Source of the DNA: a virus
DNA length: 64,000 bases
Reading direction: 5' to 3' (one strand)
IMG/VR virus record: IMGVR_UViG_3300027541_000695
Coordinates: 1-64,000 of that record
Positions 1-53,543 of the stretch are shown piece by piece. The translations under genes were made by a program, and so were the position numbers. Each line of letters starts with the position of its first letter. The first letter of the stretch is position 1. The notes under the pieces were generated by a model, which searched no databases, was not told the DNA's origin, and was given only the letters and a program-made list of their open reading frames with translations.

Positions 1-10
1 AAGATCGGGG
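1..10 (-). promoter_or_regulatory. Edge of a minus-strand promoter box (partial)
   Basis: The first bases read, on the minus strand, CCCCGATCTT. This matches the upstream half of the box found before the other minus-strand genes; the ATAAATA half would lie outside the window. Confidence 0.35.
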
Positions 11-43
11 TAAGTCGCCCCACGCAGTAAGATAATGTGAACT

Positions 44-73
44 GGGGCCAAGAACAAGCAGCTCTTGACCCCA
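44..73 (-). other. 3' hairpin of the 91-528 gene
   Basis: A long imperfect inverted repeat lies 17 bases after the stop of the neighbouring gene: GGGG.CAAGA pairs with TCTTG.CCCC. Unlike the other hairpins of this block its loop has no GGA. It has no U-tract, so it may end or protect the mRNA rather than act as a classical terminator. Confidence 0.45.
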
Positions 74-90
74 CTCACGCACTCTATAAC

Positions 91-528
91 TTAGTCTTCG
101 TTGATAGCCTTATCAAGGGCGATATTAAAGTCGACGAACTTAGCAATCTCCTTGTCTTTGTCAAGAAGGTCCATAGCTACGCCGAGCTCCCACTCAAGAA
201 ACCCGTCGATCGCTGTATCCGGGTCATTGTTCTGGCTCGCCGCGTCGCGCCCGATGAACTCCATCATAGTGTAGTTGTCTGTACTGTGTCCAGCGTTCTC
301 TTGAAGGCTCTCAATAAACTCCTCTTCGGAGTCACCCCACATGATGTCTTTCGGGATACAAGTGTTCTTGACAACCGAGCACATCTGATGAGAGTCATTG
401 TAGCCATTTTTATAAAGCTGTTCATAGTCAACCTCTGGCAGCCTAACAAGGCTAATACAGCCATTTTTCCACACATCAACCCTGAACTCAAGCCTACTGG
501 ACTTCAACTTCTTACTAAAAACAACCAT
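91..528 (-). CDS. Hypothetical protein, 145 aa
   Basis: I do not recognise this protein. It is a soluble, acidic-to-neutral protein without membrane segments; the N-terminal part is basic (MVVFSKKLKSSR) and the C-terminal half is rich in Asp and Glu. A good Shine-Dalgarno site (AAAGGGAG) precedes the ATG, and a CGATCTTATAAA promoter-like box lies about 35 bases upstream. A hairpin follows the stop. It is the most downstream complete cassette of the minus-strand block in this window. Its reality is supported by the start site and cassette layout; its function is unknown. Confidence 0.7.
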   Translation of the reverse strand: MVVFSKKLKSSRLEFRVDVWKNGCISLVRLPEVDYEQLYKNGYNDSHQMCSVVKNTCIPKDIMWGDSEEEFIESLQENAGHSTDNYTMMEFIGRDAASQNNDPDTAIDGFLEWELGVAMDLLDKDKEIAKFVDFNIALDKAINED

Positions 529-560
529 ATGTTACTCCCTTTGTTACTAACAATCTATAA

Positions 561-576
561 GTTTATAAGATCGGAA
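561..576 (-). promoter_or_regulatory. Minus-strand late-type promoter box
   Basis: On the minus strand this reads TTCCGATCTTATAAAC, a copy of the recurring TTCYGATCYYATAAATA box. It lies about 33 bases before the start of the 91-528 gene. The ATAAATA part resembles T4 late promoters. Confidence 0.55.
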
Positions 577-594
577 TACGTTACTTTGATCCCA

Positions 595-616
595 GCCGGA
601 ACCTCCATGTCCCGGC
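595..616 (-). other. 3' hairpin with ANGGAN loop (CsrA/RsmA-site-like)
   Basis: Minus-strand RNA folds as an 8-bp stem (GCCGGGAC / GTTCCGGC, one G-U) closed by C-G around the six-base loop AUGGAG. It starts 15 bases after the stop of the 632-955 gene. No U-tract follows. Confidence 0.6.
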
Positions 617-631
617 CAGAACCAACCTTAA

Positions 632-955
632 TTACTCTTCATCTTCGTCTTCTTCACCTTCTTGATCTTCTTCATAAGCTTTGCTGTTCTTGTACTCCTC
701 GTACTCTTCTTCAACCTCGCTCTTCAAAGACTCGAACTCATCTCTACTCATAGCTTTAACAAGCCGCTCGGTCGCTGCATCGTTATAGCCTTCGCTTGAG
801 TTATAGATCTCGTCGATCTCGTCGTCGCTCAAGATCCTGTTCTCCGCAGTGGCCTTGACAAAACAATGAGCCCCTGGCGCACTGTCAGTAGTCCAAAGTT
901 TATTCAATACTTCTTGAACTTCACTATCATCAACCTGTGAATTATTGTGACTCAT
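632..955 (-). CDS. Acidic hypothetical protein, 107 aa
   Basis: Unrecognised protein. The last third is almost all Glu, Asp and Lys, ending in a run of acidic residues (EGEEDEDEE), so it is strongly negatively charged. The ATG is preceded by CAAGGAG at a short distance, and a TATTTATTATCGG-type box (read on the plus strand) lies about 60 bases upstream. Very acidic small phage proteins sometimes mimic DNA or bind basic host proteins, but nothing here proves that. It is one cassette of the minus-strand array and is followed by an ANGGAN hairpin. Confidence 0.7.
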   Translation of the reverse strand: MSHNNSQVDDSEVQEVLNKLWTTDSAPGAHCFVKATAENRILSDDEIDEIYNSSEGYNDAATERLVKAMSRDEFESLKSEVEEEYEEYKNSKAYEEDQEGEEDEDEE

Positions 956-1013
956 GCTACTCTATACTCCTTGTTTTAGGGTTAATGACTTGCAATATAT
1001 CAAGTCATATAAT

Positions 1014-1030
1014 GTATTTATTATCGGATA
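1014..1030 (-). promoter_or_regulatory. Minus-strand late-type promoter box
   Basis: Minus strand reads TATCCGATAATAAATAC, a variant of the recurring box with CCGAT and ATAAATA preserved. It lies about 58 bases ahead of the 632-955 start. Confidence 0.5.
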
Positions 1031-1405
1031 GGGTGACCCCACCTACAGTAAAAACAAGCCACCGAAGTACCTCTAGCATACTCACCGTCTAGTCCCCACA
1101 GCCGCACCCGTAAACTATACCTATCGGGTTACCCATATATCGCACTTAATAGCTAGTATATCTAGTCTAATGGAGAACCTAGAGGATACTAGGATACAGG
1201 ACTTGTCTGGTCTAGAAGCGGACGTAAGCTGCTGATTATTATAGGTAGGGCAGTTGGATAGGTGGGGATGGGTCGCTCCCCACTATGAGTTCACTTAGTT
1301 CCACTATGTTATGGCTGCGCCCTGTCACCTGTCGACGTCCGTGGCTCCCCGCGCGAGACCCACCCGAGATCTGGCCGAGACCCGGACGCGAGCCGACTGC
1401 GCCCG
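1031..1405. other. Non-coding gap, rich in CTAG
   Basis: No convincing gene is seen on either strand between the promoter box of one cassette and the 13-base box of the next. The stretch 1070-1215 contains seven CTAG tetranucleotides, one forming a hairpin (CCTAG-AGGATA-CTAGG near 1178). A second small inverted repeat (GGGGA / TCCCC) lies near 1264-1281. An unannotated small RNA is possible. No tRNA signature was found. Confidence 0.4.
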
Positions 1406-1418
1406 GCGTAGCGGTGTC
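1406..1418 (-). repeat. 13-base intercassette box, copy 1
   Basis: Plus-strand GCGTAGCGGTGTC, one of six near-identical copies that lie between a 3' hairpin and the next upstream promoter in the minus-strand block. Confidence 0.7.
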
Positions 1419-1447
1419 ACCCGGCGGGTTCACCGACTTTAAGCGCT

Positions 1448-1473
1448 GGGCCGGAGCTTCCCTGCTCCGACCC
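1448..1473 (-). other. 3' hairpin with ANGGAN loop (CsrA/RsmA-site-like)
   Basis: Minus RNA: CGGAGC / GCTCCG stem, extended by three more GC pairs beyond one mismatch, with six-base loop AGGGAA closed by C-G. Located 21 bases after the stop of the 1495-1950 gene. No U-tract. Confidence 0.6.
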
Positions 1474-1494
1474 TTTGCTTACCGACCTGCTAGA

Positions 1495-1950
1495 TTAGAG
1501 GCCGAACTTGGCGCGAAGCTCGGCTGGGATGGCGTTAACATCGATCGGCTCGGGCTTAGGAGCGATCTCGGCGAGCCGCCGGTCGATGTATACTTGGATC
1601 TCGGCCACCTTTGCGGGGTCGGTCTGGATGGACTGCAACTTCCGGAGAGCAGAGACTTGAGGGTCGGTCGAGCCTCGGCGAGAACCCGGGTTCTTGGCTT
1701 CGTACTTGGTGCCACCGTTAAGTCTAGTGTCCTTGCGCAGCCAGTTGTTGAGCAGGCCGGAGCAGTAGTTTCGCAGCTCCTTGCCGGTTGGGACTTCGCC
1801 CGCGTAGCTGATCTTGCGGTTCTCGAAGCCCGACATCAAGACCTCGATCACCGAGTGCTTCTGGTCTCGAGTGAGCTCGACCGGACCTTCGCCCGACAAC
1901 TCAAACATCCCGGTAATTGCCTGATAGACTGCTTCCTTTTGGTTCAACAT
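1495..1950 (-). CDS. Conserved phage protein, paralogue A of a three-copy family, 151 aa
   Basis: This is the GC-rich member of a three-gene family (others at 4024-4470 and 4691-5143). The conserved order is an N-terminal MNQKEAVYQAITGMF helix, RDQKH, an AGE(V/L)P turn, LRNYCSGLLNNWLRKD, RLNGGTKY, AKNPGSRRG, and a C-terminal IQVYIDRRLAEI helix. From memory, proteins with the LRNY-SGL-NWLRKD-RLNGG pattern are common in marine and other phages and have no assigned function. The Shine-Dalgarno CAAGGAGCAAG precedes ATG. Expression probably starts at the box at 2011. No catalytic motif is visible. Confidence 0.85.
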   Translation of the reverse strand: MLNQKEAVYQAITGMFELSGEGPVELTRDQKHSVIEVLMSGFENRKISYAGEVPTGKELRNYCSGLLNNWLRKDTRLNGGTKYEAKNPGSRRGSTDPQVSALRKLQSIQTDPAKVAEIQVYIDRRLAEIAPKPEPIDVNAIPAELRAKFGL

Positions 1951-2010
1951 GCGACTTGCTCCTTGGTTTTGGGTTAAAGTTAATTTAATTATTAACTTTT
2001 TGCTTACATA

Positions 2011-2027
2011 TATTTATAGGATCGGAA
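2011..2027 (-). promoter_or_regulatory. Minus-strand late-type promoter box
   Basis: Minus strand reads TTCCGATCCTATAAATA, a full match to the recurring box, about 60 bases before paralogue A. Confidence 0.65.
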
Positions 2028-2062
2028 ACTTAAGTGCGTATCGGTCAGACAGTCGGGCTAGT

Positions 2063-2075
2063 GCGTAGCGGTGTC
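2063..2075 (-). repeat. 13-base intercassette box, copy 2
   Basis: Plus-strand GCGTAGCGGTGTC, identical to copy 1, between the 2083-2108 hairpin and the promoter at 2011. Confidence 0.7.
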
Positions 2076-2082
2076 AGCTTCT

Positions 2083-2108
2083 GCCGGAGAGCGTCCTTAC
2101 TCTCCGGC
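2083..2108 (-). other. 3' hairpin with ANGGAN loop (CsrA/RsmA-site-like)
   Basis: Perfect 9-bp stem (GCCGGAGAG / CTCTCCGGC). In the minus RNA the loop is AAGGAC with a U-G closing pair. It lies about 100 bases after the stop of the 2209-2430 gene; a second small hairpin (GGTCC / GGACC) sits at 2175-2188 in between. Confidence 0.55.
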
Positions 2109-2208
2109 ATAGCCTTCGGGGGTGGTAGATGGCCGGCGCTAGATCCACATTCGCGCCAGCTGCATGCTTCTATGGGTCCGTTAGGACCGGTAGTGGATAG
2201 CAGATAAC

Positions 2209-2430
2209 TTAAGCTTCTTGGTAGGAGAACTCGCCGTCGGAGTCGCCTCGCACCGAGCTGAGCATGGTGATCGCTCGCTCGATGTCCTCTCTGGTACCGT
2301 AGAGCGTGAGCACCACGGTGGCATTTACGGACGGGTCATGGGAGTAGAGCACGTCGTAGAAGTTGCAGCTGTTCGCTGGATTTACCTCGGCCGAGTGCAC
2401 TGCATTTTCTACAGGAAAGAATTTACTCAT
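2209..2430 (-). CDS. Hypothetical protein, 73 aa
   Basis: Unrecognised small protein beginning MSKFFPVENAVHS. A start further upstream (2481) is possible by frame but falls within the promoter box, while the ATG at 2430 has a strong AAAGGAG just before it, so I chose 2430. The middle (DPSVNATVVLTLYGTREDIERAI) reads like a small alpha/beta domain. Its promoter box is only about 20 bases upstream. GC-rich codon use, like its neighbours at 1.3-2.8 kb. Confidence 0.65.
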   Translation of the reverse strand: MSKFFPVENAVHSAEVNPANSCNFYDVLYSHDPSVNATVVLTLYGTREDIERAITMLSSVRGDSDGEFSYQEA

Positions 2431-2450
2431 CAAAGCTTCTCCTTTATAGG

Positions 2451-2466
2451 TATTTATGGGATCGGA
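2451..2466 (-). promoter_or_regulatory. Minus-strand late-type promoter box
   Basis: Minus strand reads TCCGATCCCATAAATA, a full match to the recurring box, just upstream of the 73-aa gene. Confidence 0.6.
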
Positions 2467-2474
2467 TAAGAGGT

Positions 2475-2490
2475 GACCCATCCGTGGGTC
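2475..2490 (-). other. 3' hairpin with ANGGAN loop (CsrA/RsmA-site-like)
   Basis: Minus RNA GACCC-ACGGAU-GGGUC: 5-bp stem, C-G closing pair and loop ACGGAU, 11 bases after the stop of the 2502-2699 gene. Nearly the same hairpin recurs at 3241-3260. Confidence 0.55.
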
Positions 2491-2501
2491 GAGGGGTAGG
2501 A

Positions 2502-2699
2502 TTACTTGGTCAGCATGTTGAGCAGCTCTTTAGGCAAGTTCTTGAAGTCGGCTTCAGTGAACTTGGTCCGCTCGGGCTTCTTGCCTCTAGTTCCCTGGTC
2601 GACCCGGTCGATCTTGCCGCCAGCTGCAAGGAAAGCCTCGCGCTCGGCTTTGATGATCTCGGCTCGCTCCACCTTAGTTTTACTCGGTCTCACCATCAT
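2502..2699 (-). CDS. Basic hypothetical protein, 65 aa
   Basis: Unrecognised small, highly charged protein rich in Lys, Arg and Glu (MMVRPSKTKVERAEIIKAER). Most of it should be helical, with a Gly/Lys/Arg hinge (DQGTRGKKPERTK). A GTG start three codons earlier is possible, but AGGAG lies eight bases before the ATG at 2699, which I prefer. Possibly nucleic-acid-binding judged by charge alone; this is a guess. Confidence 0.6.
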   Translation of the reverse strand: MMVRPSKTKVERAEIIKAEREAFLAAGGKIDRVDQGTRGKKPERTKFTEADFKNLPKELLNMLTK

Positions 2700-2762
2700 A
2701 CGTTCCACTCCTCACTCAGTAGGTTAATATAACTTAATTATTATATTTCCCCTACTCATGTA

Positions 2763-2779
2763 TATTTATGGGATCGGAA
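2763..2779 (-). promoter_or_regulatory. Minus-strand late-type promoter box
   Basis: Minus strand reads TTCCGATCCCATAAATA, a full match, about 65 bases upstream of the 65-aa gene. Confidence 0.65.
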
Positions 2780-2802
2780 CGAGGTTGGGGGATACCAGTC
2801 GG

Positions 2803-2815
2803 GCGTAGCAGTGTC
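2803..2815 (-). repeat. 13-base intercassette box, copy 3
   Basis: Plus-strand GCGTAGCAGTGTC. The flank on its left (GGGGGATACCAGTCGG) is also shared with copy 4. Confidence 0.7.
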
Positions 2816-2830
2816 AGGCGCATGGTGGGT

Positions 2831-2850
2831 GCGGAGCATCCTTGCTCCGC
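2831..2850 (-). other. 3' hairpin with ANGGAN loop (CsrA/RsmA-site-like)
   Basis: Perfect 7-bp stem GCGGAGC / GCTCCGC with minus-RNA loop AAGGAU closed by C-G, 18 bases after the stop of the 2869-3051 gene. No U-tract follows. Confidence 0.65.
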
Positions 2851-2868
2851 AGTGTGTGCACAGCGTGG

Positions 2869-3051
2869 TTAGAAGTTAAAGCGAACTACGATGCAGTCAC
2901 CACCGACATCAGGGATATGCTCGATATCGTGGAGTTGACACAGCTCACTCGCGTCTTCGTTCCAGGAGGCGATTGGTGCATCAAGCTGCTCATCGGTAAG
3001 AGATTGAAGATATTGCAGCAGCTCTCTAGCAGACTTTGGTTCAGCTCTCAT
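2869..3051 (-). CDS. Hypothetical protein, 60 aa
   Basis: Unrecognised small protein (MRAEPKSARELLQYLQSL...). The N-terminal half looks helical and the C-terminal part (GGDCIVVRFNF) looks like a beta strand. It is the second gene of a two-gene unit: its Shine-Dalgarno AAGGAGG overlaps the stop codon of the 46-aa gene upstream, implying coupled translation. Confidence 0.65.
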   Translation of the reverse strand: MRAEPKSARELLQYLQSLTDEQLDAPIASWNEDASELCQLHDIEHIPDVGGDCIVVRFNF

Positions 3052-3060
3052 GTTTCCTCC

Positions 3061-3201
3061 TTAGATTGTGTTGACTTGATTCACAATATCCTTTAACCAC
3101 TCTACATAAGTATCTCCTTCATCCAGTTCAACCATTGACTCCACATATGTGATCAACTTATCCACCTGTTCCTCAGAGAACTCAATCTTATACTTACTCA
3201 T
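3061..3201 (-). CDS. Hypothetical protein, 46 aa
   Basis: A short open frame starting MSKYKIEFSEEQVDKL and ending IVNQVNTI. GGAGG lies eight bases before the ATG, and the stop overlaps the Shine-Dalgarno site of the next gene, so both are probably co-translated. The charged, helical sequence has no recognisable family. A degenerate promoter box lies just upstream (3214-3233). Confidence 0.65.
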   Translation of the reverse strand: MSKYKIEFSEEQVDKLITYVESMVELDEGDTYVEWLKDIVNQVNTI

Positions 3202-3213
3202 CCACTTACCTCC

Positions 3214-3233
3214 CATTTATATATATATTCAGA
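3214..3233 (-). promoter_or_regulatory. Degenerate minus-strand promoter box
   Basis: Minus strand reads TTCTGAATATATATATAAAT: the TTCTGA start and an ATATAAAT end are kept but the centre is changed. It sits 13 bases upstream of the 46-aa gene, where a promoter is expected. Confidence 0.35.
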
Positions 3234-3240
3234 AACATGT

Positions 3241-3260
3241 GTGACCCATCCATGGGTCAC
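3241..3260 (-). other. 3' hairpin with ANGGAN loop (CsrA/RsmA-site-like)
   Basis: Perfect 7-bp stem GTGACCC / GGGTCAC; the minus-RNA loop is AUGGAU closed by C-G. It lies seven bases after the stop of the 3268-3465 gene. Confidence 0.65.
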
Positions 3261-3267
3261 AGGATAT

Positions 3268-3465
3268 TCACTCATGAGACTTGTTGATGATCAACTCCAT
3301 TATCCACTCATAATCAGAGTATTCAAGTGGAAGTTCCTTGTCCACACATGTGATCAAGTGGTTGAGACCCTCAAGTTCAGGTGTCATGTCATAGTCCACT
3401 TCCCTTGATTGGGTTGTTCTGTCATCCAGTTCATTCATGATTATGTTGATGATGATTTCCTTCAC
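3268..3465 (-). CDS. Hypothetical protein, 65 aa
   Basis: Unrecognised small acidic protein (MKEIIINIIMNELDDR...). It resembles a short helical protein with a hydrophobic N-terminus that is too short and interrupted to be a membrane span. Shine-Dalgarno TAAGGGAG precedes the start. It is AT-rich, unlike the GC-rich genes at 1.3-2.8 kb, although it uses the same promoter box and the same hairpin type. Confidence 0.65.
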   Translation of the reverse strand: MKEIIINIIMNELDDRTTQSREVDYDMTPELEGLNHLITCVDKELPLEYSDYEWIMELIINKSHE

Positions 3466-3527
3466 TCACTCACTCCCTTATATAAATAAGTTTAATTAAA
3501 TTAATTTTTAATTATCTTATTTACAAG

Positions 3528-3544
3528 TATTTATAAGATCAGAA
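3528..3544 (-). promoter_or_regulatory. Minus-strand late-type promoter box
   Basis: Minus strand reads TTCTGATCTTATAAATA. The AT-rich leader downstream of it closely resembles that after the box at 4570, so the two control regions look duplicated. Confidence 0.65.
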
Positions 3545-3567
3545 TATAGTTGGGGGATACCAGTCGG

Positions 3568-3580
3568 GCGTAGCAGTGTC
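3568..3580 (-). repeat. 13-base intercassette box, copy 4
   Basis: Plus-strand GCGTAGCAGTGTC with the same left flank as copy 3. Confidence 0.7.
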
Positions 3581-3581
3581 A

Positions 3582-3600
3582 AGTGAACTTCATGTTCACT
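3582..3600 (-). other. 3' hairpin without ANGGAN loop
   Basis: 7-bp stem AGTGAAC / GTTCACT with a five-base loop (AUGAA in the minus RNA). Same position relative to gene and 13-base box as the other hairpins, but the GGA is missing. Its gene, 3623-3898, is also atypical. Confidence 0.5.
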
Positions 3601-3622
3601 CAACACTTGATTTATTTAGTTA

Positions 3623-3898
3623 TTAGTTTGATTTGATTGTTAAGGTGATTAGGCCTAACTCAATTGTGATTTGATAAGTTAAACCCATTTCATAAAGAGT
3701 TATTGAGCCAAGAAGTAAGGGATTTTGTTGTGGGTGGTATTTTTGTAGTTCTAAGTATAGTTTGTTGTGGTTGATATAAAGATATGAGTTAATTTTTTGA
3801 AAGTATATTGAGTTGAATTTGTTTAGTATTGATTTTAAGTTGTATATGTTTTTAATTTGGTAGATATTTAGTGTAAGAGTAAGAGTTTTATTATTCAT
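3623..3898 (-). CDS. AT-rich hypothetical protein, 91 aa
   Basis: Unrecognised protein very rich in Asn, Ile, Leu, Tyr and Lys (MNNKTLTLTLNIYQIKNIYNL), with alternating hydrophobic patterns that suggest beta strands. It is much more AT-rich than its neighbours. There is no Shine-Dalgarno site; instead TATAAT ends five bases before the ATG, so its mRNA should be leaderless. The composition and divergent hairpin suggest a later arrival in the array. Confidence 0.6.
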   Translation of the reverse strand: MNNKTLTLTLNIYQIKNIYNLKSILNKFNSIYFQKINSYLYINHNKLYLELQKYHPQQNPLLLGSITLYEMGLTYQITIELGLITLTIKSN

Positions 3899-3919
3899 AT
3901 TTAATTATAAGATCAGAAT
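3899..3919 (-). promoter_or_regulatory. Minus-strand promoter box merged with the start codon
   Basis: Minus strand reads ATTCTGATCTTATAATTAAAT immediately before the ATG. It keeps TTCTGATCTTATAA of the cassette box, but TATAAT is five bases from the ATG. Confidence 0.55.
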
Positions 3920-3940
3920 AGAAAGCAAGATACCAGCTCG

Positions 3941-3953
3941 GCGTAGCAGTGTC
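3941..3953 (-). repeat. 13-base intercassette box, copy 5
   Basis: Plus-strand GCGTAGCAGTGTC between the hairpin at 3983 and the promoter at 3899. Confidence 0.7.
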
Positions 3954-3982
3954 AGCCTACTGCTTAAGGATTAAAGCCTTTT

Positions 3983-4006
3983 GGCTGGAGCTTCCGTGCT
4001 CCAGCC
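3983..4006 (-). other. 3' hairpin with ANGGAN loop (CsrA/RsmA-site-like)
   Basis: Perfect 9-bp stem GGCTGGAGC / GCTCCAGCC with minus-RNA loop ACGGAA closed by C-G, 17 bases after the stop of paralogue B. Confidence 0.65.
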
Positions 4007-4023
4007 GTTGGGCTACTTATCGA

Positions 4024-4470
4024 TCAGAAGCCGAACTTCTTGAGAAGGTCTTGAGGTAAGGCGGAGAGGTCAACCTTAGGCTCAAGTTCGGCGCGTCGCT
4101 TATCGATATAGACTTGGATCTCAGCAATCTTGGCAGGATCGGTTTGCATCGACTGCAGCTTCATGAGAGCTTGAAGTTGGGGATCAGTCGCACCGCGTCG
4201 TGCACCAGGATTTTTGGGTTGATACTTAGTTCCACCATTCAACCTCGGATCCTTGCGAAGCCAGTTATTGAGTAGTCCAGAACAGTAGTTTCGGAGGTCC
4301 TTGTCGTTGGGAAGTTCACCAGCATAACTGATTCGCTTCGCCTTAAACCCGGTCATCAGCACATTGATCACATCATGCTTTTGGTCTCGGGTCAGTTCGA
4401 CTGGACCATCACCACTCAGTTCGAACATCTCGGTGATTGCCAAGTACACAGCTTCCTTTTGATTCATCAT
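4024..4470 (-). CDS. Conserved phage protein, paralogue B of a three-copy family, 148 aa
   Basis: Second copy of the family described for 1495-1950, with the same landmarks in the same order: MNQKEAVYLAIT, RDQKHDVINVL, ISYAGELP, LRNYCSGLLNNWLRKD, RLNGGTKY, NPGARRG, IQVYIDKRRAEL. It is closest to paralogue C; both carry FKAKRISYAGELP, where A has FENRKISYAGEVP. GGGAG precedes the start; either of two adjacent ATGs may be used. Tandem duplication of the entire cassette is the simplest explanation. Function unknown. Confidence 0.85.
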   Translation of the reverse strand: MMNQKEAVYLAITEMFELSGDGPVELTRDQKHDVINVLMTGFKAKRISYAGELPNDKDLRNYCSGLLNNWLRKDPRLNGGTKYQPKNPGARRGATDPQLQALMKLQSMQTDPAKIAEIQVYIDKRRAELEPKVDLSALPQDLLKKFGF

Positions 4471-4569
4471 TCATTCACTCCCTGGTTTGTTTGATTATGA
4501 GTTGATGTTAGTATCAGCTCATTTGTAAGTAATTTAATTAAATTTTAATTTAATTATTTTATTTACAAG

Positions 4570-4586
4570 TATTTATAAGATCAGAA
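4570..4586 (-). promoter_or_regulatory. Minus-strand late-type promoter box
   Basis: Minus strand reads TTCTGATCTTATAAATA, identical to the box at 3528, about 100 bases before paralogue B, with an AT-rich leader. Confidence 0.65.
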
Positions 4587-4608
4587 TAGAAAACTAGATA
4601 TCAGCCCG

Positions 4609-4621
4609 GCGTAGCGGTGTC
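4609..4621 (-). repeat. 13-base intercassette box, copy 6
   Basis: Plus-strand GCGTAGCGGTGTC between the hairpin at 4644 and the promoter at 4570. Confidence 0.7.
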
Positions 4622-4643
4622 ACCCGACTAAAGCTTTAGCCGA

Positions 4644-4669
4644 GCCGCAGAGCATCCTTGCTCCGCAGC
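4644..4669 (-). other. 3' hairpin with ANGGAN loop (CsrA/RsmA-site-like)
   Basis: 4-bp core GAGC / GCTC around minus-RNA loop AAGGAU with C-G closure. The stem is extended by further GC pairs with two mismatches. It begins 21 bases after the stop of paralogue C. Confidence 0.55.
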
Positions 4670-4690
4670 CCGACCGTTGCTTCGCTAACC

Positions 4691-5143
4691 TTAGAAGCCG
4701 AACTTAGCTTTAAGGTCAGCAGGGAGTGCACTGGTATCGATCTCAACCTTAGGAGTGATCTCCTCGAGTCGCTTATCGATGTAGACTTGGATCTCAGCAA
4801 CCTTATCAGGATCAGTTTGGATGCTCTGCAACTTGCGGAGAGCGGAGATTTGAGGATCAGTCGCGCCGCGCCGTGAGCCAGGATTCTTGGCCTGATACTT
4901 AGTTCCTCCGTTCAGGCGAGTATCCTTGCGAAGCCAGTTATTGAGCAACCCAGAACAGTAGTTCCTAAGTGATTTCTCATCGGGAAGTTCACCAGCATAA
5001 CTGATTCGCTTCGCCTTAAACCCTTCGACCAGAACACTGATCACATCATGTTTTTGATCTCTACTCAGTTCAACCGCACCATCACCAGATACATCGAACA
5101 TTCCAGTGATCGCCTGATACACAGCTTCCTTTTGATTCATCAT
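4691..5143 (-). CDS. Conserved phage protein, paralogue C of a three-copy family, 150 aa
   Basis: Third copy of the family, beginning MMNQKEAVYQAITGMF and sharing all landmarks with copies A and B. Its C-terminus (DTSALPADLKAKFGF) shares a conserved LP-DL-KFGF ending with B. The Shine-Dalgarno CAAGGGAGCAAG matches the leader of copy A, which suggests that leader and gene were duplicated together. It is the first gene of the minus-strand block, facing the divergent region at 5.15-5.45 kb. Confidence 0.85.
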   Translation of the reverse strand: MMNQKEAVYQAITGMFDVSGDGAVELSRDQKHDVISVLVEGFKAKRISYAGELPDEKSLRNYCSGLLNNWLRKDTRLNGGTKYQAKNPGSRRGATDPQISALRKLQSIQTDPDKVAEIQVYIDKRLEEITPKVEIDTSALPADLKAKFGF

Positions 5144-5436
5144 ACCGACTTGCTCCCTTGTTTGTTATGATGACCGACATGATCATCATGCTTATCTATA
5201 TGATCGGTGCATTCAAAATCCCTCTCAGAATTCACCTCTCATAATATCCCTTAGATCGGGGAGGAAAACGGTGCTCCCGAAAACAGGGCCCGGTAACCTC
5301 ACCTTTCAAGGGATCCCTTGGATCGGGACGGGTACACGCCGCGCCATTTTCGCGTACGCGAGCTTTTTCCTATAAAACAAGGCCCGCTACCCTCTCCCCT
5401 AATAGGCAAACACAGGTACCGGTACATTTTTACGGG
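5144..5436. promoter_or_regulatory. Divergent control region with duplicated TTRGATCGGG element
   Basis: No gene is seen. The minus strand at about 5206-5193 carries a variant of the cassette promoter (CGATCATATAGATA) for paralogue C. Two related units occur, at about 5249 and 5307: each has TCCCTT(A/G)GATCGGG and, further on, a GGCCCG(G/C)TA(A/C)CCTC stretch. An AAGGGATCCCTT palindrome and a CGCGTACGCG palindrome are also present. The layout suits a two-way switch between the flanking gene blocks, or an origin; neither is shown. Confidence 0.45.
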
Positions 5437-5442
5437 TATAAT
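5437..5442 (+). promoter_or_regulatory. TATAAT box, leaderless type
   Basis: TATAAT ending seven bases before the ATG at 5450, with no room for a Shine-Dalgarno site. Confidence 0.6.
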
Positions 5443-5449
5443 ATAAAAT

Positions 5450-5677
5450 ATGAAAGATATCCGCTCAAGGCTCAACACAGAAATAAGCGTTTTCAACTTC
5501 ATCGAAAAACAATCCTCAATCCAGTTTGACCGCACCCGCGCCGCCAAATTCAAAAGCCGGTACGCCCTTCTCCGCTCTCTTCTAGATCTAAAGGTTATCA
5601 ACAAGACCCAACTATCCCTATATCTCCTAGATCATCCTAAAAATAAACTTGGAGCAAACTCTAATGCCGATCAATGA
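5450..5677 (+). CDS. Small LxxLxKLxV-core protein 1, 75 aa
   Basis: First member of a run of tiny plus-strand proteins. The core is RYALLRSLLDLKVINKTQL at about residues 37-55; the first 30 residues are polar. There is no Shine-Dalgarno; a TATAAT box abuts the start. It ends inside the next gene. I know no family for it; membership of the array rests on the shared hydrophobic-helix-plus-LK-hydrophobic pattern and on position. Confidence 0.6.
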   Translation: MKDIRSRLNTEISVFNFIEKQSSIQFDRTRAAKFKSRYALLRSLLDLKVINKTQLSLYLLDHPKNKLGANSNADQ

Positions 5678-5798
5678 TTATCCATATAGAGCGCTTATAA
5701 AGCTTCTCTGCAAGCTTAATCTACATTCAGCGTATAAGCAAGCATTACCAAACCCACACGATCCCGACATCTTTGGTACTTCCTGGTTCACGGGGTGA
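5664..5798 (+). CDS. Small LxxLxKLxV-core protein 2, 44 aa
   Basis: Short frame MPINDYPYRALIKLLCKLNL..., overlapping the end of gene 1 by 14 bases. GGAG lies nine bases before the ATG. The core ALIKLLCKLNL fits the array consensus well. The tail is polar and rich in Pro, Asp and aromatic residues. Function unknown. Confidence 0.55.
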   Translation: MPINDYPYRALIKLLCKLNLHSAYKQALPNPHDPDIFGTSWFTG

Positions 5799-5801
5799 CG
5801 T

Positions 5802-5915
5802 ATGTACGAACCTAGGTTTACGCAGAAAGGCATCGATCGAGCCTGGGCCCGCCACAACCTACTCGTTTTATTGATGAAGTTCGGCATTAGAATGCCATAT
5901 TATGATATACGGTAG
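5802..5915 (+). CDS. Small LxxLxKLxV-core protein 3, 37 aa
   Basis: Short frame MYEPRFTQKGIDRAWARHNLL..., with core NLLVLLMKFGIRM. It starts three bases after the stop of gene 2 and overlaps gene 4 by 14 bases, so the genes are packed as if translated together. Function unknown. Confidence 0.5.
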   Translation: MYEPRFTQKGIDRAWARHNLLVLLMKFGIRMPYYDIR

Positions 5916-6087
5916 TCACCACTCAAGTAGGTCAAACTTGTTAAAATTAAAGGTTGCGTTAATACTGCACAAGATGGGCGTCAAACACCCGAACATACAA
6001 GAAGATGTATATAACATAATGGGTATATACGTCAGTAGTTATTATTATTACGATAATAAGCTCGGCGTTTTCTCTTACATACCGTAA
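5902..6087 (+). CDS. Small LxxLxKLxV-core protein 4, 61 aa
   Basis: Core KLKVALILHKMGVKHPN at about residues 15-31, followed by a helical segment and a Tyr-rich tail (SSYYYYDNKLG). Overlaps gene 3. Function unknown. Confidence 0.55.
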   Translation: MIYGSHHSSRSNLLKLKVALILHKMGVKHPNIQEDVYNIMGIYVSSYYYYDNKLGVFSYIP

Positions 6088-6113
6088 GCGCTAGATTACC
6101 TACCCACTTAAGA

Positions 6114-6119
6114 TATAAT
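6114..6119 (+). promoter_or_regulatory. TATAAT box, leaderless type
   Basis: TATAAT ending six bases before the ATG at 6126. Confidence 0.6.
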
Positions 6120-6125
6120 CTAGAT

Positions 6126-6290
6126 ATGACTAGGTCAAGCGATAAGGTTAAGTATATGCGCGTCCATTTTCACAAGAGGGAGTATTACTGGCTCTTGGTT
6201 AAGATGTTAAGCAAACTTAACGTTATAAGCGAGGATAAGTATTTCGCTTTCTTATTTTATATTCCATCAGATATCGAGTTTGACATATGA
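6126..6290 (+). CDS. Small LxxLxKLxV-core protein 5, 54 aa
   Basis: Starts MTRSSDKVKYMRVHFHK; core YWLLVKMLSKLNVISEDKYF at about residues 21-40, one of the clearest matches to the array consensus, then a hydrophobic FAFLFYI stretch. A TATAAT box six bases from the ATG suggests a second leaderless transcript inside the array. The stop overlaps the next start as ATGA. Confidence 0.6.
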   Translation: MTRSSDKVKYMRVHFHKREYYWLLVKMLSKLNVISEDKYFAFLFYIPSDIEFDI

Positions 6291-6481
6291 TTCCGTGTTT
6301 TCCAAAGTTCATCAAGACGATGTCTCGCGATAGGAACTTCGATATACAGTACGTGTGCGCTGTAACGCTCATGACAATGGGCGTTATCACCGATGAGCAG
6401 TTTAAGAAGTTCGTCGTAATGTATATCGCGAATTACGGCGTCGGAACAAGTATGCAAGATGACGCGCACTATGATATATGA
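6287..6481 (+). CDS. Small LxxLxKLxV-core protein 6, 64 aa
   Basis: Core YVCAVTLMTMGVITDEQFKK at about residues 22-41, followed by a hydrophobic helix (FVVMYIANYG). Coupled to gene 5 by an ATGA overlap. Function unknown. Confidence 0.55.
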   Translation: MIPCFPKFIKTMSRDRNFDIQYVCAVTLMTMGVITDEQFKKFVVMYIANYGVGTSMQDDAHYDI

Positions 6482-6665
6482 TGGCTTTCGCAAAAGTTTG
6501 CAAGGTAAACATGGGGATAACGCGCTTGGCTCTTGGCATTGGCTCACTCTTGTTCTTTGGAAACTTGGACTTATGGACAGCGATGAGAGATTAACCATAG
6601 CACTTATGTTGATTGGTAGGTTGCATCAAAGGGATACAAATGAAGACGACGATGAAGCACGGTGA
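6459..6665 (+). CDS. Small LxxLxKLxV-core protein 7, 68 aa
   Basis: Core WLTLVLWKLGLMDSDERLTI, with a Trp-rich lead-in (SWHW) and an acidic tail (TNEDDDEAR). The start could be 6459 or the in-frame ATG at 6471, nearer the previous stop. Overlaps its neighbours on both sides. Confidence 0.5.
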   Translation: MTRTMIYDGFRKSLQGKHGDNALGSWHWLTLVLWKLGLMDSDERLTIALMLIGRLHQRDTNEDDDEAR

Positions 6666-6870
6666 AGACTGTAGATGCCCATATTGTCTAAGATACTCTA
6701 TTCACTTGCTGTACCCTAACGGCGGGATGGATAGTTTATCTTATATAGCTAAGTATAACTTGTGTAGCGTTTTGATGAAGTTGCGCGTAGCATCGCATAA
6801 GAACGTTGACGCGTATATTCGCGCGGCAATATTCGACGAGGTCTTACTGATGACCTCACACTTTTATTGA
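6640..6870 (+). CDS. Small LxxLxKLxV-core protein 8 with CxC-x2-C cluster, 76 aa
   Basis: I placed the start at 6640 because AAAGGGA lies six bases before that ATG; an upstream start at 6613 is possible. An N-terminal EDCRCPYCLRY cluster may bind zinc. The core is YNLCSVLMKLRVASHKNVDAY. Overlaps gene 7. The only array member with a Cys cluster. Confidence 0.55.
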   Translation: MKTTMKHGEDCRCPYCLRYSIHLLYPNGGMDSLSYIAKYNLCSVLMKLRVASHKNVDAYIRAAIFDEVLLMTSHFY

Positions 6871-6871
6871 T

Positions 6872-7018
6872 ATGATTCCAAAAGAGTTAGTAGCATGCGA
6901 TAGGTTAGTGTGGGTACTGTTCCAGATGAGAGCAGTATCTAAGAGTAATTACATGTTGTTTAGGTTCATGTGCAAAAAGAGACTGGATATCTGGATGCAC
7001 CAGACAAATAAGGTATAA
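6872..7018 (+). CDS. Small LxxLxKLxV-core protein 9, 48 aa
   Basis: Frame MIPKELVACDRLVWVLFQMRAV... starts two bases after the previous stop. The core LVWVLFQMRAVSKSNYM keeps the hydrophobic spacing, but the Lys is replaced by Gln. Followed by a Cys and basic segment (FMCKKRLDIW). Unknown function. Confidence 0.5.
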   Translation: MIPKELVACDRLVWVLFQMRAVSKSNYMLFRFMCKKRLDIWMHQTNKV

Positions 7019-7021
7019 TAT

Positions 7022-7093
7022 ATGATGTACGTATATGCACTTAACTTAGTAACTATGCTTGACTTAAACGGGCGGGGGCTCATAGCCAAATAA
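7022..7093 (+). CDS. Possible micro-protein, 23 aa
   Basis: Very short frame MMYVYALNLVTMLDLNGRGLIAK, which keeps the ALNLVTMLDL part of the array core. A TATAAT box lies two bases before the first ATG (five before the second). It may be a truncated array member or chance. Confidence 0.3.
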   Translation: MMYVYALNLVTMLDLNGRGLIAK

Positions 7094-7098
7094 GAACT

Positions 7099-7275
7099 AT
7101 GAGAAACGTTAAGGTCTACGTTGACATGAATGACAAGAGAGATGGATGGATGGCGAGATACATAGTCATGTATGATCTTTTTAGTGTCATGGTAAAGCTT
7201 AAGATAATAAAAGACGTCACTATGGTAGACACTAATGACCACAGCTGGACGCACAGGATAAGATTTGGGCAATGA
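7099..7275 (+). CDS. Small LxxLxKLxV-core protein 10, 58 aa
   Basis: MRNVKVYVDMNDKR...; core MYDLFSVMVKLKIIKDVTM at about residues 24-42. The stop overlaps the next start as ATGA (7272-7275). Unknown function. Confidence 0.55.
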   Translation: MRNVKVYVDMNDKRDGWMARYIVMYDLFSVMVKLKIIKDVTMVDTNDHSWTHRIRFGQ

Positions 7276-7499
7276 ATAGATATATAAGCATATTAAGCTT
7301 GCTGATCGTGGGTTTAGCCGGGGGGTGCGCGAGCGTCGAAATGAACCGATCGCACCATATGTTAAAAGTTTGCTCTATTCAGGGCTGTAATATAGTAAAC
7401 GTGTTCGATAGCTTGTCTTACTGCATAGAGATGAGAGATCAGTTGAGATCTGCTCACAAAGATGTCAGCGCTATATGTGAAGGGTTTAAAGAACCATAA
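7272..7499 (+). CDS. Predicted small lipoprotein, 75 aa
   Basis: The N-terminus MNRYISILSLLIVGLAGGC is a signal peptide ending in a lipobox-like LAGGC, so cleavage and lipid attachment at Cys19 are likely. The mature part has four more Cys (CSIQGC, YC, AIC), which suggests a small disulphide-linked domain outside the inner membrane. It lacks the array core although it lies inside the array, coupled on both sides (ATGA before, TAATG after). It could be an Rz1-like or superinfection-exclusion lipoprotein; no partner spanin is beside it. Function not proven. Confidence 0.6.
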   Translation: MNRYISILSLLIVGLAGGCASVEMNRSHHMLKVCSIQGCNIVNVFDSLSYCIEMRDQLRSAHKDVSAICEGFKEP

Positions 7500-7696
7500 T
7501 GTCGAGCATATACGATCACGACGAGTCGCACAAGCACAAGATACTGATAGCAAGAAGATTAGCTAAATTAGAGGCTAAAGCAGGATTGTTCGCGATCTTG
7601 AAAGCACTCAAGATAAAAGCTGCGACAAAGACAGCTGATCGTTACTGGAACGAGTATATGGCTTTTTTAGGCGATCTGACAAGTAGAGCATACTGA
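7499..7696 (+). CDS. Small LxxLxKLxV-core protein 11, 65 aa
   Basis: Polar His/Lys-rich start, then AGLFAILKALKIKAATKTA as the core at about residues 28-46 and a Trp/Tyr segment (RYWNEYMAFL). Starts within TAATG of the lipoprotein stop. Unknown function. Confidence 0.55.
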   Translation: MSSIYDHDESHKHKILIARRLAKLEAKAGLFAILKALKIKAATKTADRYWNEYMAFLGDLTSRAY

Positions 7697-7697
7697 C

Positions 7698-7907
7698 ATG
7701 GGATTCTATGAAAACATAGACATGTTTCAGGTCATGTCTGCGCTTGATCTTATAGTGATCTTGAGAAAGCTTAATGTAGCAGATGATATATTCTTTGGAA
7801 CGGTATCTGGACGCAACTGGAACACGTATTACACAGATTCGGATAAGTTTGCGTTGATCAAGAAGAGAGCAATTAGATCATCTTCAGGTCATCTCTTTAA
7901 GGTGTAG
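7698..7907 (+). CDS. Small LxxLxKLxV-core protein 12, 69 aa
   Basis: Core ALDLIVILRKLNVADDIFF at about residues 15-33, a textbook match to the array consensus, followed by a polar basic tail. Last gene of the array; its end overlaps the end of the convergent Cys-rich gene by 19 bases. Confidence 0.55.
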   Translation: MGFYENIDMFQVMSALDLIVILRKLNVADDIFFGTVSGRNWNTYYTDSDKFALIKKRAIRSSSGHLFKV

Positions 7908-8125
7908 TTTTTTAGATCTATCTCTTCGTCTATGATGGCATTATGCATTAATACACCTAGTGCTATCTCTAATCTTTGAGGAGGAGTAGGAGGAGATGGA
8001 TTAAGGAACTCTGGTAAACACATGGCCCTAAACGGACACACTTTACACCTAGCCGCCTTAAGACATTGACCGTTAGTCTCCACTATCTCTTCAAGTATAT
8101 TTTTATCATCGCTAGACAAAAGCAT
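7889..8125 (-). CDS. Small Cys-cluster protein, 78 aa (copy 2)
   Basis: Shares with the upstream gene the pattern IL(E)xI(V/I)ExNGxC...C..CP, here EIVETNGQCLKAARCKVCPF then C at AMC: four Cys that could hold a metal or Fe-S cluster. From memory, the NG-C-C-CP pattern is frequent in small phage and bacterial proteins of unknown role. The ATG directly follows the TAA of its neighbour, so the two are one operon. Convergent with the micro-protein array. Confidence 0.65.
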   Translation of the reverse strand: MLLSSDDKNILEEIVETNGQCLKAARCKVCPFRAMCLPEFLNPSPPTPPQRLEIALGVLMHNAIIDEEIDLKNYTLKR

Positions 8126-53414: not shown

Positions 53415-53420
53415 TTTTAT

Positions 53421-53504
53421 GGGGCTATAGCTCAGCGGTAGAGTCAATGCTTAGGGATTAACATATTTAAGCAGAATGCGATGGTTCGAATCCATCTAGC
53501 CCCG
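53421..53504 (+). tRNA. Atypical tRNA-like gene, anticodon unclear
   Basis: Perfect 7-bp acceptor stem (GGGGCTA / TAGCCCC), TA at 8-9, D-arm GCTC-AGCGGTA-GAGT, T-arm GATGG-TTCGAAT-CCATC and discriminator G; CCA is not encoded. Between D- and T-arms there are 35 bases instead of about 23. The only stem there is TGCTTA / TAAGCA with a 14-base loop (53454-53467), so the anticodon arm has an oversized loop. It may be an unusual tRNA, a degenerate one, or a tRNA mimic. Confidence 0.65.
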
Positions 53505-53543
53505 TTAAATTAACCCCTCTTTCATCCTAATTTTACAAATTCT

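Follow-up and report, generated by a model that had tools for sequence, protein, structure and literature searches.

Hairpins at the gene ends of the accessory block

The analysed stretch (the window) comprises 64,000 bases of the 69,638-base viral contig IMGVR_UViG_3300027541_000695. Its accessory block at positions 91-5143 consists of short minus-strand genes, here called cassette genes, among which recognised families are almost absent. Most of them are preceded by their own promoter-like repeat. This analysis concerns eight hairpins of the block with the loop ANGGAN, which resemble binding sites of the CsrA/RsmA protein family (Table 1).

All eight hairpins listed in the initial annotation were recovered on the minus strand at the same coordinates and with the same loops, closed by C-G in seven cases and by U-G in one. 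The statement that they lie just after stop codons holds for seven of them (7-21 nucleotides, nt), the hairpin at 2083-2108 being about 100 nt away. The cassette open reading frame (ORF) ending at 91 is followed by a hairpin with the loop UGCUU instead of ANGGAN. The minus strand of the region 1-5300 contains eight ANGGAN hairpins and the plus strand none, and no further ones were found outside this region on either strand of the window. In 500 dinucleotide shuffles of the block the mean number of such hairpins was 0.014 and the maximum was one. For seven of the eight hairpins the GGA triplet is predicted to be unpaired, with a probability of 0.9 or more. Loops of the form ANGGAU may shrink to an NGGA tetraloop by pairing of the first A with the last U, for which the predicted probability is about 0.7. 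The eight-hairpin feature is real and non-random, and it extends beyond the window.

Table 1. Hairpins, repeats and selected genes of the accessory block
Feature	Positions	Strand	Comment
Gene-end hairpin, loop AUGGAG	595-616	-	15 nt past stop of ORF 632-955
Gene-end hairpin, loop AGGGAA	1448-1473	-	21 nt past stop of ORF 1495-1950
Hairpin, loop AAGGAC, U-G closed	2083-2108	-	about 100 nt past stop of ORF 2209-2481
Gene-end hairpin, loop ACGGAU, 5-bp stem	2475-2490	-	11 nt past stop of ORF 2502-2708
Gene-end hairpin, loop AAGGAU	2831-2850	-	18 nt past stop of ORF 2869-3051
Gene-end hairpin, loop AUGGAU	3241-3260	-	7 nt past stop of ORF 3268-3465
Gene-end hairpin, non-CsrA pentaloop AUGAA	3581-3612	-	cassette ORF ending at 3623
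Gene-end hairpin, loop ACGGAA	3983-4006	-	17 nt past stop of ORF 4024-4470
Gene-end hairpin, loop AAGGAU	4644-4669	-	21 nt past stop of ORF 4691-5143
Conserved element TGACACYGCTACGC	1406-1419	-	repeat family
Conserved element TGACACYGCTACGC	2063-2076	-	repeat family
Conserved element TGACACYGCTACGC	2803-2816	-	repeat family
Conserved element TGACACYGCTACGC	3568-3581	-	repeat family
Conserved element TGACACYGCTACGC	3941-3954	-	repeat family
Conserved element TGACACYGCTACGC	4609-4622	-	repeat family
Promoter-like repeat, consensus YYGATCYYATAAATA	562-578	-	before next gene
Promoter-like repeat	2013-2029	-	same family as 562-578
Promoter-like repeat	2453-2469	-	same family as 562-578
Promoter-like repeat	2765-2781	-	same family as 562-578
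Promoter-like repeat	3530-3546	-	same family as 562-578
Promoter-like repeat	3904-3920	-	same family as 562-578
Promoter-like repeat	4572-4588	-	same family as 562-578
Cassette ORF, 151 aa, first of three paralogues (others 4024-4470, 4691-5143)	1495-1950	-	family in 42 viral loci
Cassette ORF, 68 aa, SutA RNAP-binding domain match	2502-2708	-	Pfam 30.8 bits, cut-off 29.3

Recurrence in related contigs

Relatives were sought by four routes, namely through a cassette protein, a DNA element, the stem sequence and a linked virion protein, the last of which is blind to loops. Gene-end ANGGAN hairpins were found in 11 contigs, the window's own and ten others sharing the adjacent virion genes. This set contains 47 hairpins, 41 of them distinct, with 16 different inner stems. 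The loop is closed by C-G in 46 of the 47, although the search had set no condition on closure. Where a stop codon lies within the search reach, its distance to the hairpin has a median of 10 nt and a range of 3-21 nt. Contig L012 has eight consecutive hairpins, one per gene end, all of the ANGGAN type. In one relative with a full 153-kb record, gene-end ANGGAN hairpins occur only in the cassette block, where there are four; two more weak matches lie away from any stop codon.

In a loop-blind scan of the nine contigs richest in ANGGAN and of 20 related contigs, each gene end was represented by its strongest hairpin. Within the nine, ANGGAN was observed at 42 of 91 cassette gene ends and at none of 43 structural (virion) gene ends (Fisher p = 3e-9). 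The 20 related contigs have it in one of 113 gene-end hairpins; the contigs were grouped once the loops had been seen, so that this latter comparison is descriptive and not a test, and the within-contig comparison depends less directly on the grouping. The labels are not absolute, as contig 3300012943 (L013), classed as "other", has one 5-bp hairpin with the loop AUGGAC before an element. When all viral contigs were searched, GCGGAGCANGGANGCTCCGC led to two true relatives (L012 and L017). As a stand-alone marker this sequence was rejected, since it also turned up as one-off matches, 11 in all, in unrelated contigs that are mostly GC-rich.

Conservation of loop and stem

The 23 distinct 16-mers from six contigs can be aligned, and all 115 pair cells are paired. 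Both sides have changed in 45 pair cells, compared to a mean of 14.3 in shuffled sets, and none of 500 shuffles reached 45. The pairing signal is lost when the partner is slid by one to three columns. This bears out the initial annotation, in which the stems were said to differ in sequence and keep pairing under a constant loop. DNA-sequence-specific palindromes were rejected as a candidate explanation, as the stems vary. Loop positions A1, G3, G4 and A5 are invariant, and positions 2 and 6 take all four letters. The invariant positions were the selection rule, hence their constancy is no proof alone; the C-G closing pair and the location after the stop codon were outside this rule in the six-contig set. 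Selection on the loop is suggested because the 16 inner stems share it, with positions 2 and 6 varying and the other four fixed. Of the 31 hairpins that were folded, 29 have a GGA predicted to be unpaired with a probability of at least 0.9.

This pattern agrees with a known type of protein-binding site. In the high-affinity RsmE site, an ANGGAX hexaloop sits immediately above a stem whose closing pair is C-G, and the freely variable N and X are looped out; RsmZ, CsrB and the leader of hcnA contain such sites (PMC4005645). The ANGGAN form assigned to CsrA/RsmA sites in the initial annotation equals this published consensus. ACGGAU, one of the loops seen here, is the loop of a 20-nt ribosome-binding site (RBS) RNA bound by RsmE in structural work (PMC4005645). 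The ligands of E. coli CsrA obtained by systematic evolution of ligands by exponential enrichment (SELEX) mostly carry GGA within a six-nt hairpin loop (PMC7652899). By these established rules, the hairpins should be bound by a protein of the CsrA family. Based on the form of the sites, this is the best available reading.

Other readers of the loop can be considered. One candidate is a RegB-like endonuclease with GGAG or GGAU targets, or else Shine-Dalgarno-like pairing of the loops with 16S rRNA. Indeed, 23 of the 41 distinct hairpins have a loop ending in GGAU, more than any other 3' part, and RegB of T4 cuts in GGAG/U (PMC3014915). However, GGAG occurs in just two of the 41 loops, and GGAA or GGAC in 16. 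Moreover, RegB sites follow the consensus GG*AGRAYARAA, and secondary structure blocks them (PMC3014915). Shine-Dalgarno pairing is disrupted where position 2 is C or U, as it often is, and no start codon lies close downstream. We therefore rejected both the T4 RegB site, by the rarity of the GGAG core, and Shine-Dalgarno mimicry, by the variation at position 2, and consider this whole group of explanations very improbable.

Another phage- or host-encoded RNA-binding protein with CsrA-like specificity, such as a termination, processing or mRNA-protection factor, could read the loops as well. The loop is confined to one gene block and swapped in relatives, the phage records are without CsrA, and most cassette proteins belong to no known family, so that the binder could be among them. 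On the other hand, we know of no other protein with a recognition rule of A-N-GGA-N closed by C-G. This combination, together with the two free positions, is the rule of CsrA/RsmE (PMC4005645), and we consider a different reader unlikely.

Hairpins of relatives and replacement of the loop

The initial annotation had noted that no U-tracts follow the hairpins. At least five T within the next eight nt were observed in only one of 31 hairpins from six contigs, and ordinary intrinsic terminators were rejected on this ground. In other relatives the hairpin after the gene end is retained in place, but its loop is UUCG, GNRA or an unrelated one, in some cases followed by a U-tract. In the L176 group GAAA loops precede U-tracts, L087 has UUCG, and GCAA and others occur elsewhere. 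These intrinsic terminators share with the ANGGAN hairpins the position after the stop codon and before a conserved element, whereas the ANGGAN hairpins lack the U-tract and have a loop resembling a protein site. Within each phage the loop type tends to be uniform (UUCG in L087, GAAA in L176, UAU in L067, AUCU in L042). The loop type is therefore a lineage trait. It had been suggested at the outset that the CsrA interpretation would suffer if related phages kept the stems and not the GGA. The outcome was split: ten further contigs keep GGA in an almost unchanged form, and other close relatives have swapped the loop. Thus the loop is conserved in some lineages and replaced in others.

Mapped onto the linked virion protein's tree, the ANGGAN state requires five changes, at least 4-5 of which are forced by well-supported branches, a count that could be inflated by recombination between the block and the virion gene. 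This tree was preferred to one of a cassette protein, which was dropped, because cassette genes may move between phages. On one reading the ancestral device was a terminator, whose loop turned into a protein-type site in some lineages. Repeated changes of state would be expected if the loop tracks which hosts have a CsrA-family protein.

The relatives also bear on another explanation, in which the hairpins chiefly serve to structure 3' ends, as weak terminators or exonuclease blocks, and duplication and recombination spread the ANGGAN loop of one founder hairpin, with no protein ligand. Plain terminators indeed occupy the same site in relatives (GAAA or UUCG, some with U-tracts), stems of the types GGAGC/GCTCC and GAGCTC repeat within contigs, and the cassette genes themselves are duplicated. 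However, the same loop is found on 16 inner stems, with free positions 2 and 6 beside fixed A1, G3, G4 and A5; the U-tract is missing; and the state was gained or lost repeatedly. We regard this explanation as rather improbable.

An acidic 107-aa ORF family with the SAPGAH motif (632-955, minus strand; also L001, L018 and L176) is common to ANGGAN and GAAA blocks.

Possible function of the hairpins

We lean towards the reading that the gene-end hairpins are sites for a CsrA-family protein in the 3' untranslated regions (3'-UTRs), serving as decoys or as 3'-end protectors. The protein is presumably the host's, because none of the 44 related phage records, some of which are fragments, encodes a CsrA family protein. 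In agreement with the initial annotation, csrA is absent from the window, and it is likewise absent from the whole record of the contig. Almost every small cassette gene would thus bear a predicted high-affinity CsrA/RsmA-family site about 10 nt past its stop codon. With a promoter-like repeat for most genes, infection would yield many short mRNAs, each having one candidate CsrA site in its 3'-UTR. Jointly these sites may form a distributed decoy drawing CsrA off host mRNAs, and the bound protein might also shield the mRNA 3' end.

That the hairpins were selected for titrating host CsrA, and not for protecting phage mRNA, is a tentative suggestion, and we would not favour it; 3'-end protection is an equally simple use. 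A broader scenario is that a distributed CsrA decoy has come and gone repeatedly in the phage family, which would place a single CsrA site in the 3'-UTR of every short accessory gene in lieu of an encoded regulator or sponge small RNA, that transcribing the block reprograms the Csr/Rsm system of the host, and that the loop follows the presence of CsrA in the host. This too is possible rather than probable.

Several observations weigh against a CsrA site. There is no internal partner in the phage records, a CsrA-carrying host is a presumption, and close relatives manage without the ANGGAN loop. The hairpins stand one per gene, hundreds of nt apart. Known sponge RNAs have several sites, and CsrA is a dimer preferring two sites per RNA; for such a protein, one site on each RNA would be a poor arrangement. 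A hairpin 7-20 nt past the stop codon will meet terminating ribosomes. One of the eight hairpins (2475-2490) is predicted to misfold, as a competing fold is favoured and GGA is unpaired with a probability of only 0.30. Copying of hairpins between genes may explain part of their likeness, as indicated by the recurring GGAGC/GCTCC stem. Finally, most SELEX ligands of CsrA have at most four contiguous stem pairs, and the phage stems are longer (PMC7652899).

In contig L012 (9700-11064) the leaders of some genes contain a GGA close to the start codon (CTCGACTCATGGACTCGAG) and might thereby provide a weaker site of the CsrA type.

Comparison with known systems

The arrangement differs from that of known CsrA targets. 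RsmZ and CsrB have several sites per small RNA, and in the hcnA leader the site overlaps the RBS, whereas the phage has one site per mRNA, located after the stop codon. No sponge RNA of the CsrB/RsmZ type, with several GGA hairpins in one non-coding RNA, was found in the block. Nothing credible emerged from permissive Rfam scans of the block and L012; for this type of RNA there was only a weak match to RsmV (15.5 bits, the gathering score being 100). Conserved loops of the ANGGAN type are also known from the TwoAYGGAY (RF01731) and Bacillaceae-1 RNAs, for which CsrA binding was predicted from the motif alone (PMC4333381). Those, however, are compact RNAs with two such hairpins, and the RF01731 covariance model had no match in positions 1-5400 of the window or in L012 at E-values up to 5.

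Cassettes with a composite promoter/stem-loop (PeSL) were reportedly described by Arbiol in 2010 and Comeau in 2014. In these cassettes of T4-like phages, as described in citing text, a stem-loop is coupled to an early promoter, and the block has a similar layout, with a stem-loop after an accessory gene, then the promoter-like repeat of the next gene, and fast gene turnover (PMC4503421). It differs from what is given there by the fixed ANGGAN loop, the missing U-tract, the additional TGACACYGCTACGCC box and the non-T4 lineage.

Mobile elements acting on the host Csr/Rsm system, as predicted here, are known from CsrA/RsmA proteins encoded by phages and plasmids (PMC8450108, PMC7366521; RsmQ, PMC9928087). 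In those cases the element encodes the protein, whereas here the phage would provide RNA sites, and a csrA gene was not found. Among the papers searched, there was no report of phage mRNAs presenting arrays of CsrA sites, phage-encoded CsrA proteins being already known. The form of the ligand is known, and what is new is its place and carrier. CsrA/RsmA globally controls carbon use, motility, biofilm formation and, in Serratia, CRISPR-Cas (PMC8450108). If binding is true, the hairpins would represent a second phage route onto the Csr/Rsm pathway, beside encoding CsrA. The natural switching of loop type among close relatives provides a ready comparative test of loop function.

Conserved element and promoter-like repeat

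Most hairpins are separated from the next promoter by the 15-nt element TGACACYGCTACGCC, which has six copies in the window, all in gene sense. The element is conserved in many large uncultured phages (e.g. L006, L067, L087, L176), always in gene sense. A reversed control pattern had no matches in 15 records. No known name for the element was found. Downstream of it lies the promoter-like motif CCGANNCTATA, at distances clustering near 20-22, 28-31 and 39-42 bases. The period of 10-11 bases in these distances exceeds that in jittered controls (p = 0.0005). Because the distances to the promoter step by about 10 bases, the spacing suggests that TGACACYGCTACGCC is a site of a DNA-bound activator phased with the promoter on one face of the helix. 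An RNA role may also be considered, since the hairpin stem overlaps the element in several relatives.

In L042, L055, L070 and L168 the 3' arm of the hairpin takes in the start of the element, e.g. GTCACCCG GAAT CGGGTGAC followed by actgctacgc.

Cassette proteins and possible hosts

The three paralogues belong to a family of all-helical proteins of about 150 aa with the motif NNWLRKDxRLNGG, found in many cassette blocks. The family has no relative in PHROG, Pfam or PDB and no protein match in the phage collection searched; in DNA comparisons with a phage collection, positions 1-8000 of the window had no match. The AlphaFold model of the 151-aa protein is all-helical (predicted local distance difference test, pLDDT, 86.5) and has no PDB match at E<=0.001.

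The 68-aa product with the SutA domain match may be a phage factor that acts on the host's RNA polymerase; SutA itself is known from Pseudomonas (PMC9300723). Among GTDB genomes, relatives of the cassette protein were found in one Cytophagales and one Bdellovibrionales metagenome-assembled genome (MAG). The Bdellovibrionales MAG, whose relative is distant, has CsrA; its binning is uncertain, and the contig in it need not be an ANGGAN phage. The 369 genomes around this MAG contain a single isolated match to the element. The SutA-like domain and the Bdellovibrionales MAG are leads to the host, neither of them decisive.

An Rfam scan at gathering cut-offs reported only a tRNA; a tRNA-like gene, whose anticodon could not be read by ARAGORN, lies at 53420-53505 on the plus strand. 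From about 8 kb onward the window carries virion genes on its plus strand (tail sheath, baseplate, structural protein), together with GroEL, primase and SbcC-like genes. Judged by the tail sheath, the closest named relative is Myxococcus phage Mx1, with 34% over half of the protein.

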